DNA of 64,000 bases from Natrinema pellirubrum DSM 15624 (GTDB lineage Archaea > Halobacteriota > Halobacteria > Halobacteriales > Natrialbaceae). The notes under the pieces are model-generated. The model made no database searches, was not told the DNA's origin, and was given only the letters and a program-made list of their open reading frames with translations. This document shows positions 28,061 to 37,696 of this stretch, one piece after another (position 1 is the stretch's first letter; every line of letters begins with the position of its first letter). The stretch spans positions 2,604,001-2,668,000 of the forward strand of contig NC_019962.1 in NCBI RefSeq assembly GCF_000230735.2. Direction: 5' to 3'. The position numbers were made by a program, and so were the translations under genes.

Positions 28061-28873
28061 TTACCCGCGTTTGTCCGGCATCGTCGAGTGGCAGGCAGTG
28101 CCGCGCATGTCCGCCCGCTGTGACGGCGGCGGCGCCATCGTCGAGTGGCGACTCGGCCCGCCCGAGGCCGTGCCGCGCTCCCCATCACCACCGAGTCCCG
28201 ATCCCAGCAGCCCCTCGTCGTCCTCATTGGCTGCCTCGTCGTCGGCCGCCGTCTCGCCGTCCGCGTCTCCGCCGGCGCTCCCGGCGCTTCGCTCCTCGAG
28301 TCGCGCCTTCAGTTGCGACACCTCGTCGCCGAAGTCGGCAAGCGAGTCACTCATCGCCGACCGGAGCCTGTCGCCGAAGTCGTCGGTCGTCGACTCGGCC
28401 TCGTCGGCCGCCGAGTCGTCCCCGTCGGACTCGGCCGGCGTCTCACCGTCGGCCGCCCCTTCACTATCGTCCGCGTCGACTGCGCTCTCTGCGGTGTCGG
28501 CTGCCGACCCGGCCCGTTCGCCGATAGCGTCCTGCAGGTCGTCGACGGCGTCCCCGAGTCCCCCGTCGTCCGCCCGGTCGGCGAGCCTCGAGAGCCGGAG
28601 CAATCGCTGGAGGTCCGCGACACGCTCCTGCTCGCCCCGGGCGATCGCCTCGGGGATCGAGTCCGGCTCCGAGCCGTCCTTGAGCGTGTCCAGTCCGAGC
28701 GCTCCAAGCAGGTCGTCGGGGTCGGCCGACTCGAGGATATCGTCGGCTTCGCGTGCGGTCTCGAGCAGGTCGGAGTCGGCGTCCCCGTCGTCGCCGGAGA
28801 CGAGCGAGCCGCCGCGCTCGTCGGCGTCGTGCAGTACCTCGCGGACGCGGTCCCGTAGTGATGAGTCGCTCAT
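28061..28873 (-). CDS. Acidic cluster protein 4 (hypothetical)
   Basis: Family not recognised. Of the 270 residues, the first 110 are helical and soluble (LRDRVREVLHDADE; LQRLLRLSRLADRAD). A long Asp/Glu/Ala-rich low-complexity segment follows, with one amphipathic helix (SDSLADFGDEVSQLKARLEERS). The tail is basic and Ser/Thr/Pro/Met-rich with two Cys-free/His-rich HSTM repeats. The tail is encoded over a 14-bp direct repeat (28079-28092 and 28136-28149). It is the last gene of the four-gene acidic cluster, 63 nt after the upstream stop. Confidence 0.65.
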   Translation of the reverse strand: MSDSSLRDRVREVLHDADERGGSLVSGDDGDADSDLLETAREADDILESADPDDLLGALGLDTLKDGSEPDSIPEAIARGEQERVADLQRLLRLSRLADRADDGGLGDAVDDLQDAIGERAGSAADTAESAVDADDSEGAADGETPAESDGDDSAADEAESTTDDFGDRLRSAMSDSLADFGDEVSQLKARLEERSAGSAGGDADGETAADDEAANEDDEGLLGSGLGGDGERGTASGGPSRHSTMAPPPSQRADMRGTACHSTMPDKRG

Positions 28874-28936: not shown

Positions 28937-29722
28937 CTACTCGGCTTCGGCCGCTTCCGTCTCCGAGTCGTCCGATCCCTCGTCGGTCACCGTCTCGACG
29001 ATCTCCGTGGTCATCTCTTCCCGGCTGAGGTTGGCCTTCACGCCGACGTCTTTCGCGACCGACTGCAGGTCGCTGTAGGACAACACCCCGAGGAAGTCCT
29101 CGAGGGTGTCTTCCCGCAGGTCTTCGATCTCTTCGACGGACGGCTCGGTGTCTCCGTCCGAATCCGCCGTTTCGTCGGTTTCCTCGCCGCCCTCGGTTTC
29201 CGACTCGGTCTCGGCACTGTCCTCGACCTCCTCGTCAGCCTCGTCGGAGTCCGCCTCCTCGTCGACCGACGGTTCGTCCGTGTCCGACTCCGCCTCGCCC
29301 TCCGATTCCGCGTCGTCGGTATCCCCGCCTTCGTCGCTGCCTCCCTCGAGCAGGCCCTCGACGCCGCCACCTTCGGTGACGCCTTTCGCCATCGACTCGA
29401 GGGAGTCACGGCCCTCGATCTCCGAGATCGATTCCCGAACGGCGTCCGTGACCGCCGTCCGAACCTCGGCCGGCAGGTCGCCGAGTTCCTTGCCCTCCTC
29501 GAGGCCCTCGGCGACCGTCTCGTGGACCTCGCGACCGACGGCGGTCCCCAGTTGCCGCCCGAACTGCTCGCCGAACTGGCGGCCGACCGCGGCCCCGACC
29601 TCGCCGCCGTCGATACTGTCCTCGAGGCTGCCGTCGCCGAGCAAGTCGGCCACGTCGACCTGTTCTTTTACCTCGTCGGCGACCATCCCCTTCAGCCCGG
29701 ACTCGTCACTCACGCCGATCAC
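28937..29722 (-). CDS. Acidic cluster protein 3: glycine-zipper plus SAP-like domain
   Basis: A 261-residue protein of unknown family. Glycines recur every fourth residue at 39, 43, 47, 51, 55, 59 and 63 (for example VGAAVGRQFGEQFGRQLG), forming a seven-glycine zipper. A helical part follows (about 70-115), then a Glu/Asp/Ser-rich region (about 125-195). The C-terminal 50 residues resemble a SAP or Rho-N type helix-extended-loop-helix (YSDLQSVAKDVGVKANLSRE). The zipper is paralogous to that of the gene upstream, 41 nt away. It could be an oligomeric scaffold with a nucleic-acid or protein-binding end. Confidence 0.68.
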   Translation of the reverse strand: MIGVSDESGLKGMVADEVKEQVDVADLLGDGSLEDSIDGGEVGAAVGRQFGEQFGRQLGTAVGREVHETVAEGLEEGKELGDLPAEVRTAVTDAVRESISEIEGRDSLESMAKGVTEGGGVEGLLEGGSDEGGDTDDAESEGEAESDTDEPSVDEEADSDEADEEVEDSAETESETEGGEETDETADSDGDTEPSVEEIEDLREDTLEDFLGVLSYSDLQSVAKDVGVKANLSREEMTTEIVETVTDEGSDDSETEAAEAE

Positions 29723-29763: not shown

Positions 29764-30261
29764 TTACTCTTCCTCCTCGGCTTCGGCTTCCATTTCGTTC
29801 TCGGCGTCCTCGTCGGCCGCGTCGTCGCCCTCCGCCGACTCCTCGTCGCCGGCATCGGCGTCGCTTTCGGCCTCGTCTTCCGCCTCGGTTTCTTTTTCGG
29901 TGGCTTCGTCTTCGGACTCGGTACTCTCCTCGTCGGGCGACTCCTCGCCCTCGGATTCCGACTCATCGGACTCCGCTTCGGTGGCTTCCTCCTCGGAGGC
30001 GCCGCTTTCCTCCTCGGCTTCCGACTCGGACTCGTCGCTGCTGAGCAGTTCCTCGACGACCATGCTCCCGATCGTCCGGCCGAGCGATTCGCCGACTTTG
30101 CGACCGACGAGCGCACCGATCTGCCCGCCGAGTGCCGCGCCGAGGGGCATGTCCTCGTCGATCTCGTCTTCCCACTGGGTCCCTTCGACGAGCTGGTCGA
30201 CGTCGATGTTCTCCGTGATCGCTTCCGTGTCGATCCGCTGTGTGATGGATTCGTCGCTCAT
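29764..30261 (-). CDS. Acidic cluster protein 2: glycine-zipper protein
   Basis: A 165-residue protein of unknown family. An N-terminal Ile/Asp-rich segment (QRIDTEAITENIDVDQLVEG) precedes a seven-glycine zipper with glycines at 41, 45, 49, 53, 57, 61 and 65 (LGGQIGALVGRKVGESLG). The last 90 residues are almost only Glu, Asp, Ser and Ala. The zipper region is charged, so an oligomerising helix is as likely as a membrane helix. The ATG overlaps the stop of the 462-residue gene upstream by 4 nt, indicating translational coupling. Confidence 0.68.
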   Translation of the reverse strand: MSDESITQRIDTEAITENIDVDQLVEGTQWEDEIDEDMPLGAALGGQIGALVGRKVGESLGRTIGSMVVEELLSSDESESEAEEESGASEEEATEAESDESESEGEESPDEESTESEDEATEKETEAEDEAESDADAGDEESAEGDDAADEDAENEMEAEAEEEE

Positions 30262-31646
30262 GATGTCGCCTCCGTTTCCGCTGCCGATTCCGGCTCGCCG
30301 CCGGACGCCGTTTCCTCGCTCTCGGGCTCGAGTTGCTCGATCAGTTGTTCGATCACCTGCGAGACGACGGCCGCGACGATCTCCTCGACGGGCAGACTGG
30401 GGACGAGCCCGGACAGCTTCTCGCGCAGCCAGCCGCCCACTCTGGCGAGCGGGCCGGGTGACTCCTCGCCCGCATCCACCTCGTCGGTCTCGTCCGCGGT
30501 TTCCTCGCCGGTCGTCTCGTCGGCCGCTTCATCCGCTTCCTCGCCCTCGTCCGCAGCAGCCTCGCTTTCCTCGGGACCGCCGCCGAAGAGCCCGCGGAGC
30601 CACGCCACGGGCTTCCTGAGGATCGCTTTGAGCCAGCCGCCGAGCGACGAGAGCGGGCCGCCGGACTCGCCCTCGGACTCCTCGCCTTCGGCTTCCCCGC
30701 CGCCGATACCGAGGAGCGCGGTCAGCCACTCTTTGGGCTTGCTCACTAACCCGCTGAGGAACTCCTTGGGCTTCTCGAGGAGGCCGCTGAGAAGCTCTTT
30801 GGCCTTCCCCGGGACCTTCTTGAGCAACTCGAGCGGCTTTTTCAGCAGCGATTTCGCCTTGTCCAGCATGGCACCGGGACCGTCGAGCAGCCCCGTCACC
30901 GCCGACAGCAGGTTCCCGAGCAGGTTGTTCGACCCCGGCCGCGCCGAGACGTCCAACTGCACCGGGTTCAGGTTCACCTCGAGGCCGAGCAGGTCGAGAA
31001 AGAGCCCGTCGAGATCGAGGTGGAGGACGCCGGCGGCGTCGTCGCCCTCGTAGACGTCCTCGGCGTCCGCAGCGTGGCCCTCTTCGCGATCGTCCTCGAC
31101 GAGGTCGCCGGTATCGGCCCGTTCGTCCTCGTCTTCGTCCTCCCCTGCTGAGTCCTCGTCTTCGGCGTCCGCGTCCGCGGGCTCTTCGTCGGTTTCCGCC
31201 TCGGAGGATTCCGCCGCCGGCCCTTCGTCAGTGTCTGCGTCCGACTGTTCCTCCTCGGCTTCCGCCGTTTCATCGTCCTCGGTTTCCTCTGCCTCGCTCT
31301 CCGACGACTCCTCGTCTTCTGTCGCTTCTTCGTCCGCAGCGTCCTCTTGCTCGTCCTCCGCGACCGTTTCGTCTTCGGCACCTTCCTCGTCCTCGGCTTC
31401 CGCTTCCGACCCCTCATCGCCGTCTTCGGCCGACTCGTCTTGCTCCGCTCCCGAGGCGTCTTCGTCGCCCTCGGGGCCGTCACCCTCGTCGTCCGGTTCT
31501 TCCATCTCCGCTTGGCCGCCATCGGTCAGCACCCGGTGTGGCGGCCCCGTCGGCCGCTTCCCCTCGTCGGGACGGCCCGCGGAGCGCTCGCCCCGCTCGA
31601 GGGCCGAACGCTCTCTCGAGCCGTCACGGTCGAACTCTGCGGTCAT
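30258..31646 (-). CDS. Acidic cluster protein 1: amphipathic 11-residue repeat protein
   Basis: Of its 462 residues, 50-200 are an acidic low-complexity arm. A conserved-looking core (about 207-256) combines short hydrophobic strands with GNLLGNLL-type helix motifs (LDLLGLEVNLNPVQLDV; NNLLGNLLSAVTGLLDG), a pattern I have seen in secreted bacterial and archaeal hypotheticals. Four in-phase 11-residue amphipathic repeats follow (270-280, 281-291, 292-302, 303-313: K-P/A-K/L-E-hydrophobic-L type). Then come a further helix, a second acidic arm and a C-terminal amphipathic helix (about 418-440). It is first in the cluster. A start at 31505 (Met48) is an alternative, because a TATA-like motif directly abuts 31646. 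Confidence 0.68.
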   Translation of the reverse strand: MTAEFDRDGSRERSALERGERSAGRPDEGKRPTGPPHRVLTDGGQAEMEEPDDEGDGPEGDEDASGAEQDESAEDGDEGSEAEAEDEEGAEDETVAEDEQEDAADEEATEDEESSESEAEETEDDETAEAEEEQSDADTDEGPAAESSEAETDEEPADADAEDEDSAGEDEDEDERADTGDLVEDDREEGHAADAEDVYEGDDAAGVLHLDLDGLFLDLLGLEVNLNPVQLDVSARPGSNNLLGNLLSAVTGLLDGPGAMLDKAKSLLKKPLELLKKVPGKAKELLSGLLEKPKEFLSGLVSKPKEWLTALLGIGGGEAEGEESEGESGGPLSSLGGWLKAILRKPVAWLRGLFGGGPEESEAAADEGEEADEAADETTGEETADETDEVDAGEESPGPLARVGGWLREKLSGLVPSLPVEEIVAAVVSQVIEQLIEQLEPESEETASGGEPESAAETEATS

Positions 31647-35778: not shown

Positions 35779-36813
35779 TCAGTAGTCGTACTTCGTCTCG
35801 TAGCCCCGGGGCGTGACCATCCGGTCGTCCCAGACGTAGGTGTCCTCGGTGCCGACGACGATCGTCGTCGTCATGTCGATGATCTCGCTCTCGCCGAGGT
35901 CCTCGAGCTCGCCGAGTTCGGTGATCATCACTTCCTCGTCCTCGCGGCCGGCGCCGTGGACGATACCGACCGGCGTGTCGGGCTCGCGGTGGGTCAGCAG
36001 AATCTCACAGGCCTTCTCGAAGTTCTCGCGGCGCTTGCGGCTCCAGGGGTTGTAGATGGTGATCGTGAAGTTCTCGCTGGCGACGGAGTGCAGTCGGGAC
36101 TCGATCTCGGGCATCGGGACGAGGTGGTCCGACAGCGACACCGAGACGGTGTCGTTGACCAGCGGTGCGCCCAGACGGGCCGCACAGGACTGTGCCGCGG
36201 GGACGCCCGGCACCACTTCGAAGTCGACCATCGAGGCCGTCGCGCCCTTGGACTCGAGGATCTCGAGTGCGAGTCCGGACAGCGCGTAGACGTTGGGATC
36301 GCCGCTGCCGACGATCGCCACGTCGTTGCCCGCCAGCGCGCGGTCGATCGACTCCTCGGTGCGGGAGACCTCGCCGCACATCGGCGTGTCGTAGATGTCG
36401 TCGGCCTCGTCGGTGATCTCGTCCGGGATCAGGTCGATGTAGGTCGTGTAGCCGACGATGTGGTCGGCCTCGAGCAGCGCGGCCTTCGCGCGGTCGGTCA
36501 TCCCCTCGGGATGGCCGGGACCGAGGCCGACGGCGATCAGCTGGCCGGGCTCGGCGTCGAAGTCGTCGACCGTCGCGCCGACCTCCTGCTCGTTACTGTT
36601 CGAGTCGTCGGAACTCGAGGCACCGCAACTCGAGGACGAGGAACTCGAACTCGAGGACCCACCGCACGTGGAGCCGCTCGAGTCGTCGGTACTGCTCGAG
36701 GCACCGCATTTCGAACTCGAGCTGTCGGTGCTGGCCTCGCTACTGTCGCTCGAGGAGGCACCGCAGTTGGAAGTCGATTCCGCGTCAGCGTCGGCGTTGG
36801 TGTCAGTACTCAT
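35779..36813 (-). CDS. cbiH: Precorrin-3B/cobalt-factor III C17-methyltransferase with Cys/Ser-rich N-terminus
   Basis: Contracts and methylates the macrocycle at C17 using SAM. After residue 90 the SAM-dependent tetrapyrrole methylase fold is clear (IAVGLGPGHPEGMT; GSGDPNVYAL; VPGVPAAQSCAARLGAPL; YNPWSRKR). The first 85 residues are low-complexity Ser/Asp with four Cys-Gly-(Ala/Gly)-Ser-Ser motifs at Cys17, 36, 50 and 63, which is unusual. Start at 36813 follows the upstream stop by 10 nt; 36843 would overlap that gene. A second cbiH-type gene lies directly upstream. Confidence 0.9.
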   Translation of the reverse strand: MSTDTNADADAESTSNCGASSSDSSEASTDSSSSKCGASSSTDDSSGSTCGGSSSSSSSSSSCGASSSDDSNSNEQEVGATVDDFDAEPGQLIAVGLGPGHPEGMTDRAKAALLEADHIVGYTTYIDLIPDEITDEADDIYDTPMCGEVSRTEESIDRALAGNDVAIVGSGDPNVYALSGLALEILESKGATASMVDFEVVPGVPAAQSCAARLGAPLVNDTVSVSLSDHLVPMPEIESRLHSVASENFTITIYNPWSRKRRENFEKACEILLTHREPDTPVGIVHGAGREDEEVMITELGELEDLGESEIIDMTTTIVVGTEDTYVWDDRMVTPRGYETKYDY

Positions 36814-36823
36814 GGTTGTGGGT

Positions 36824-37696
36824 TCAAAAGTCGTCGACGTCACGCCCGCCGCGCGGGGTGACGAGGTACGTTCGGTCGTCGTTGCGCCAGGTCTCGGTCT
36901 CGTGGTTGCCGATGATCAGCGAGGTGCCCATACCGGAGACCTTGTCGTCGTGGTCGGCGGCCTCGCCCAGCGTGGTGATGAACTGGCTCTCGCCGTTGCG
37001 GCCGGCGTCTTCCCGGCCGGCGTCGTTGACGATGGCTACGTAGGCGTCGTCGGTCCGCTCCTCGCGGACGATCTCGACGGCCTCCTCGTAGTTGCGCCAG
37101 CAGTTGTAGAGGACGATCACGAAATCGGAGATCGCCGCCGCCCGGAGCTTCTCCTCGATCTCGTCCCAGCCGCGCCACTTGTCCGACAGCGAGACCGTAC
37201 AGAAGTCGTTACACAGCGGCGCCCCGACGTTCGCGGAGCCGCCCAGTGCTGCCGTCAAGCCGGGGACGATTTCGATCGGAATATCCGTCGCATCGTCCTC
37301 CTCTGCCATCTTGAAGATGAGGTCGGACTTGCCGTAGACCGACGGATCGCCGCCGGAGACGTGGGCCACGTCTTTCCCCTCGCGGACGTGATCGAACGCC
37401 GCGCGGGCGAGTTCGATCTGTCGGCCCATCGTCGAGCGGACGATCTCCTGTTCGAAGCCGTCCTCACGGGTCGCGGTGCCGTCCTCGTCGGTTCGGTCCT
37501 CCGAGGGAATCGTGCCGTCGTCCCGCAGGAACTCCTGATAGAGGCTCGAGGCGATGACCACGTCCGCGGACTCGATGACCTCCTTGGCTCGCTTGGTCAT
37601 GTGGTCGGGCAGGCCGGGGCCAATACCGACGACGTAGAGGGTGCCGTGGTCGTCGGGCGTGCCGTCGCCGCTGGGAGCTGCGTCCTCCACGCTCAT
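36824..37696 (-). CDS. cbiH: Precorrin-3B/cobalt-factor III C17-methyltransferase (second copy)
   Basis: A 290-residue SAM-dependent methylase of the same fold as its neighbour (VVGIGPGLPDHMT; SGGDPSVYGK; VPGLTAALGGSANVGAPL; YNCWRNY). It probably catalyses the C17 reaction or a related ring-contraction step; which of the two paralogues is the true CbiH cannot be decided here. The ATG overlaps the cbiG stop by 4 nt, and the gene is co-transcribed with the cbiT-started operon. It lacks the Cys-rich N-terminal extension. Confidence 0.88.
   Translation of the reverse strand: MSVEDAAPSGDGTPDDHGTLYVVGIGPGLPDHMTKRAKEVIESADVVIASSLYQEFLRDDGTIPSEDRTDEDGTATREDGFEQEIVRSTMGRQIELARAAFDHVREGKDVAHVSGGDPSVYGKSDLIFKMAEEDDATDIPIEIVPGLTAALGGSANVGAPLCNDFCTVSLSDKWRGWDEIEEKLRAAAISDFVIVLYNCWRNYEEAVEIVREERTDDAYVAIVNDAGREDAGRNGESQFITTLGEAADHDDKVSGMGTSLIIGNHETETWRNDDRTYLVTPRGGRDVDDF

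Follow-up and report, generated by a model that had tools for sequence, protein, structure and literature searches.

A lysine-rich 11-residue repeat protein of Natrinema pellirubrum as a candidate gas-vesicle coat protein

Analysis of a 64 000-nucleotide stretch of Natrinema pellirubrum DSM 15624 (contig NC_019962.1, positions 2 604 001–2 668 000 of the forward strand; 'the window', the numbering of which is used throughout) indicates that a 462-residue acidic protein with in-phase 11-residue amphipathic repeats is very probably a gas-vesicle accessory protein. Its gene (30258–31646, minus strand, by translation) is the first of a four-gene cassette and is referred to here as gene 1. The sequence comparisons lean towards the protein being an accessory factor that braces the GvpA shell in haloarchaeal gas-vesicle clusters lacking gvpC, with its gene heading a four-gene operon, and make it a candidate for an undescribed gas-vesicle coat protein.

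Sequence features and predicted structure

The gene 1 protein matches no Pfam family, and no relative of solved structure was found by sequence. Its parts, all encoded on the minus strand, are a family-conserved motif RVLTDGG (residues 38–44, 31515–31535), a long low-complexity region of acidic composition (residues 46–205, 31032–31511), a conserved core domain (residues 206–257, 30876–31031, VLHLDLDGLFLDLLGLEVNLNPVQLDVSARPGSNNLLGNLLSAVTGLLDG) that occurs in 63 of 195 Halobacteria genomes and at 74 named loci, the four 11-residue repeats (residues 270–313, 30708–30839), a second basic amphipathic helix (residues 334–355, 30582–30647) seen in the AlphaFold2 model and a C-terminal amphipathic helix (residues 412–441, 30324–30413, SGLVPSLPVEEIVAAVVSQVIEQLIEQLEP) that is kept in haloarchaeal homologs. 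The N-terminal motif, with the family form R(V/L)(L/M)xDGG, is present in 59 of 67 haloarchaeal homologs compared with 88 of 2067 background proteins.

The four repeats had been pointed out in an earlier note on this DNA, and translation and lag-11 self-similarity bear them out, with the correction that the array ends at 30839 and not one base further at 30840. They read KPLELLKKVPG (residues 270–280), KAKELLSGLLE (281–291), KPKEFLSGLVS (292–302) and KPKEWLTALLG (303–313), with no slippage. Lys at position 1, Glu at position 4 and Leu at position 6 are found in all four units and Pro at position 2 in three, while position 5 is Leu, Phe or Trp and position 9 is aliphatic, in agreement with the Lys start and Leu/Phe/Trp centre that had been described. 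Among lags of 3–24 the strongest self-similarity of the array is at 11 (mean BLOSUM62 score 1.63) and the second strongest at 22, a multiple of 11; only one of 5000 same-residue shuffles equalled the lag-11 score at any lag. The proposed analysis as an 11/3 helix placed the maximum of the hydrophobic moment at 99° per residue, a value matched by none of 5000 shuffles, so that the segment has both the in-phase period and the moment near 98–100° of 11-residue amphipathic helix proteins. The array carries a net basic charge within a protein that is itself strongly acidic (96 Asp or Glu among the first 205 residues), again as noted earlier. An additional KP 11-mer that had been overlooked, KPVAWLRGLFG (residues 345–355, 30614–30582), forms the last part of the second basic helix and is directly preceded by SLGGWLKAILR. 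Tandem Repeats Finder identified no 33-bp DNA array at the repeats, which rules out a recent DNA tandem duplication as their origin; the period is therefore maintained at the protein level.

AlphaFold2 prediction for residues 201–462 (40 rows) produced helices at residues 242–254, 257–276, 281–301, 304–311, 333–353, 399–412 and 420–439, with a pLDDT of about 70–79 over the repeats, about 78 for the C-terminal helix and a pTM of 0.25. The model thus supports a helical array with no confident globular packing and no sign of its burial in a globular fold. The core domain alone was modeled as four short strands followed by two helices (pLDDT 69.6, pTM 0.33), and a fold search of the PDB with this moderately confident model gave no match below an E value of 2.7.

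Binding to a surface is the natural reading of such an array. The earlier note likened it to perilipins, synuclein and apolipoproteins and proposed an anionic lipid or polymer-granule surface. Gene 1 has in common with apolipoprotein A-I, perilipin and synuclein the 11-residue period and the 11/3 amphipathic helix, and with apolipoprotein A-I also the punctuation by proline. However, no homology to these proteins was detected, none of the phasin, perilipin, synuclein and apolipoprotein Pfam models matching the gene 1 protein even at E ≤ 10, and gene 1 encodes a gas-vesicle-linked archaeal protein with a protein shell as its presumed target. The idea of a basic, helical, surface-binding array is therefore retained, but the surface is probably not lipid or polyhydroxyalkanoate (PHA), as the genomic evidence favors the gas-vesicle shell.

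Variation within the family

The constant features of the family are the N-terminal motif, the acidic region, the core of about 52 residues and the C-terminal amphipathic helix, and the variable array lies between the core and the C-terminus. Orthologs had been named as a place to look for the period. It is conserved in Natrialbaceae, a lag of 11 scoring best in 35 of the 52 homologs with a sufficiently long segment (median z 4.8), and the number of 11-mers in this family (Natrinema, Haloterrigena, Natronorubrum, Natrialba and relatives) ranges from 0 to about 6. In other families the array is missing or gives way to 18-mers. In Haladaptatus, Halocatena, Halohasta and others the homologs keep the core but carry no 11-mers, so that the array is dispensable for the basic role of the protein family. 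In Halococcus-type homologs (L137, L143 and L145) the 11-mers are replaced by 18-residue amphipathic repeats, T(S/A)PxxALRxxASRVWxVL; 11/3 and 18/5 alike are periods of an α-helix.

The core domain is also homologous to that of bacterial proteins with an LGNLL(C/S)AVxGLLDG domain (L148, L149, L151 and L158; Nocardioides, Salipaludibacillus and Planobispora), two of which were scanned and gave no Pfam match. Unlike gene 1, these have secreted-looking N-termini resembling signal peptides, no long acidic region, no 11-mers and no gvp genes within 10 kb.

Association with gas-vesicle genes

Among the 195 Halobacteria genomes the core is found in 63, GvpA-family genes (PF00741) in 82 and both in 62. 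The single core-bearing genome without a GvpA-family gene is a 70%-complete assembly that has GvpN, and gvp genes of some kind are present in all 63. The co-occurrence is significant by genome (Fisher p = 6 × 10−32) and by genus (p = 8 × 10−12), in tests that ignore the tree. An artefact of genomic neighborhood is ruled out, since DUF3209, which adjoins the cassette, does not track gvp (35/83 versus 49/112, p = 0.88). A dependence on GvpN is likewise ruled out, with 31 of the 63 core-bearing genomes having no GvpN over the cut-off. Within Natrinema, two of the sampled genomes have no gvp genes, and neither has an intact cassette: in G055 it is gone from between intact, syntenic flanks, and in G154 a 124-residue remnant of gene 1 and a fragment of gene 3 are left.

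That the array might instead anchor the protein peripherally to the membrane or to polymer granules, either directing a gas-vesicle component to the membrane or acting apart from gas vesicles, is improbable. The chemistry of the amphipathic 11-mers is suited to this, and the core is weakly associated with PHA synthase (odds ratio 3.3, p = 2 × 10−4). However, the association with gvp genes, with an odds ratio of about 350, is much stronger, 18 of the 63 core-bearing genomes have no PHA synthase, whereas the gvp-less congeners G055 and G154, and also G100, possess the enzyme but not the cassette, and the negative profile searches point the same way. On these grounds a lipid-droplet or PHA-granule protein was judged unlikely.

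The arrangement of gvp clusters was inspected in a sample of genomes. In other families, at three loci (L070–L072) the homolog lies between gvpH and gvpI in the order gvpFGH-X-Y-IJKLM and at two others (L050 and L051) it lies downstream of gvpA–gvpO, and gvp genes occur within 10 kb of the homolog at 12 of the 74 named loci; in some lineages the protein is thus encoded within the gvp operon or next to it. In N. pellirubrum itself about 1 Mb separates the cassette from the gvp cluster. The L070–L072 position, among the accessory genes gvpF–M and not adjoining gvpA, would suit an assembly or nucleation factor, the core and C-terminal helix of which act early with GvpF–L while the 11-mers form a helical, flexible linker or an arm that docks onto GvpL, GvpI or GvpA. 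This alternative is rather unlikely although far from negligible; the position after gvpA–gvpO in L050 and L051 goes against it. A conserved zinc-finger-like protein of 112–117 residues with the pattern LPWIDEP...CPxCGS...CLDC is encoded between gvpO and the core protein at these two loci (L050, 6111–6449; L051, 8339–8692).

The four-gene cassette

In N. pellirubrum and its relatives the cassette forms a separate locus adjoining cobalamin genes, and no plasmid-borne copies were found. All four genes are on the minus strand. Gene 2 (29764–30261, assigned by synteny), the start of which overlaps the stop of gene 1 by 4 bp (30258–30261), encodes an acidic protein with a Gly-zipper-like segment, the Gly-zipper matches being weak and below the cut-off. 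Gene 3 (28937–29722, assigned by synteny) encodes a Gly-zipper-like N-terminal part and a C-terminal segment labeled HeH/SAP-like by eye; proteins resembling it adjoin gvp genes in L050, L157 and L159. Gene 4 (28061–28873) ends in a GvpI-type tail (RHSTMAPPPSQRADMRGTACHSTMPD), identified with a GvpI-tail profile. In a search of 2429 proteins, the listed matches below the annotated GvpI proteins were the last genes of this cassette, with best E values of 9.6 × 10−7 (L048) and 1.9 × 10−5 (L131). The similarity to GvpI, a haloarchaeal accessory gas-vesicle protein, is to the tail alone: the C-terminal STMP motif pattern is common to both, but gene 4 is without the final RIYGxRF part. The tail could also be taken in favor of the assembly-factor alternative. 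Also in the window, a precorrin-methylase-like protein (35779–36843) has a Ser-rich start with repeated CGASSS units (36600–36843, minus strand).

Comparison with GvpC

The gvp cluster of N. pellirubrum comprises gvpMLKJIHGF and gvpA-N-O, and nine of the ten genes scanned have the expected Pfam domain; gvpN has an AAA ATPase domain, gvpH a weak HSP20 match, gvpI was assigned by its tail motif and gvpM by a GvpA-family search. GvpO of this cluster (L068, 12536–13069) is fused to an N-terminal DUF5763 (Cys/His) domain. Searches with PF05465 and with GvpC proteins found no gvpC in this genome. The gene is reported to be missing in related genera (PMC4390858, PMC3403918), and a table assigning gvpACNO to related genera (PMC9501494) is not borne out by the present searches.

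Of the 20 gvp genomes that lack the core, 8 have multi-repeat GvpC; no core-bearing genome has it. One core-bearing congener, G024, has a single divergent GvpC (protein search, E = 1.8 × 10−4) and two gvp clusters (L169 and L170), one with and one without gvpC. With G024 included, the core and GvpC exclude each other with p = 2.5 × 10−5; across genomes it is almost complete, and within G024 it applies at the level of the cluster. The remaining 12 gvp genomes have neither. The divergent GvpC of G024 has, in place of the zinc finger, an HeH/SAP-like C-terminus (LRELQYGKLKQAANRVGYDGNLNAAKKDELVAFL) that by eye is similar to the end of cassette gene 3.

The C-terminal tail of GvpA, measured from the HYA of helix 2 onward, is 17–24 residues long with 5–7 acidic residues in clusters with gvpC, compared with 25–60 residues and 7–20 acidic residues in clusters without it. 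The two clusters of G024 have tails of 18 residues (5 acidic) and 35 residues (13 acidic). Acidic GvpA tails are found also in the absence of the 11-mers or of the core.

GvpC (cyanobacterial 33-residue repeats; haloarchaeal Halo_GVPC, PF05465) and the gene 1 protein are both gas-vesicle-linked repeated amphipathic helices that occur almost exclusively of each other, and three 11-mers equal the length of one 33-residue GvpC repeat. Nevertheless, the gene 1 protein does not belong to GvpC, differing in every feature compared: it matches neither the Halo_GVPC nor the GvpC profile and shows no similarity in sequence, its period is 11 and not that of 32–40-residue helical repeats, and its gene lies elsewhere than between gvpA and gvpN, where the N. 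pellirubrum cluster has no gene. Unlike GvpC, it is also proline-punctuated and Lys-rich and has an unrelated core domain. It may nonetheless work like GvpC.

Proposed function

The GvpC of Anabaena sits over hydrophobic pockets and over the C-terminus of GvpA, which is negatively charged, with one 33-residue repeat for about four GvpA subunits (PMC10185304, PMC9994262). By analogy, a Lys-rich array of 3 × 11 residues could fit the GvpC site on GvpA. The core domain and C-terminal helix are the conserved part of the protein; in the mechanism suggested here, the 11-mers would form a Lys-rich, proline-punctuated amphipathic array lying with its hydrophobic face down on the outside of the GvpA ribs. 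The basic array would pair with the acidic GvpA tails, three 11-mers corresponding to one GvpC repeat and about four GvpA subunits, and would brace the shell as GvpC does elsewhere. The shell location, the mode of GvpA binding and the bracing are all presumed from sequence, and the specific proposal that the proline-punctuated Lys-rich helices brace the shell in replacement of GvpC has something short of an even chance of being correct.

The 12 gvp genomes with neither GvpC nor the core argue against this explanation, as do the distance of the cassette from the gvp cluster in N. pellirubrum, the secreted-looking bacterial core homologs without gvp genes close by, the missing sequence similarity to GvpC and the reported absence of visible gas vesicles in these genera, and the lineage-specific occurrence of the 11-mers, together with acidic GvpA tails that occur without them, argues against a general role as a brace. 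The constant core and variable number of 11-mers would suit an assembly factor; however, the near-exclusion with GvpC fits better with a protein that has taken over the role of GvpC, and an assembly factor would leave the combination of a basic array and acidic GvpA tails as a coincidence. It is least probable of all that the gvp-like clusters of Natrialbaceae, with the cassette, now make some other GvpA-based structure and no gas vesicles. Strains of these genera have been reported as Vac−, with no visible gas vesicles (PMC4390858), and these clusters encode extended GvpA and GvpI proteins, but gvpA, F, G, H, I, J, K, L, M, N and O are all present with open reading frames, a set that is deemed sufficient for gas vesicles by review.

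Taking the brace proposal further, these clusters may tentatively represent a second haloarchaeal gas-vesicle type, in which GvpC is replaced by a non-homologous basic 11-mer brace that is encoded in a separate four-gene operon and clamps lengthened acidic GvpA tails. The four genes seem to make up a gas-vesicle cassette not described before, with no mention found in the searchable literature, a search mostly outside subscription papers. According to reviews, gvp clusters that are nearly complete but lack gvpC occur in many haloarchaea, which show no gas vesicles, and no replacement for gvpC is named there. A specific candidate operon can now be named, which experiments with the gvp cluster alone would miss. 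If the bracing role is true, the protein would represent a convergent, modular and charge-tunable gas-vesicle coat, useful for engineered vesicles, and the chemistry of the GvpA tail would be tied to the type of coat.
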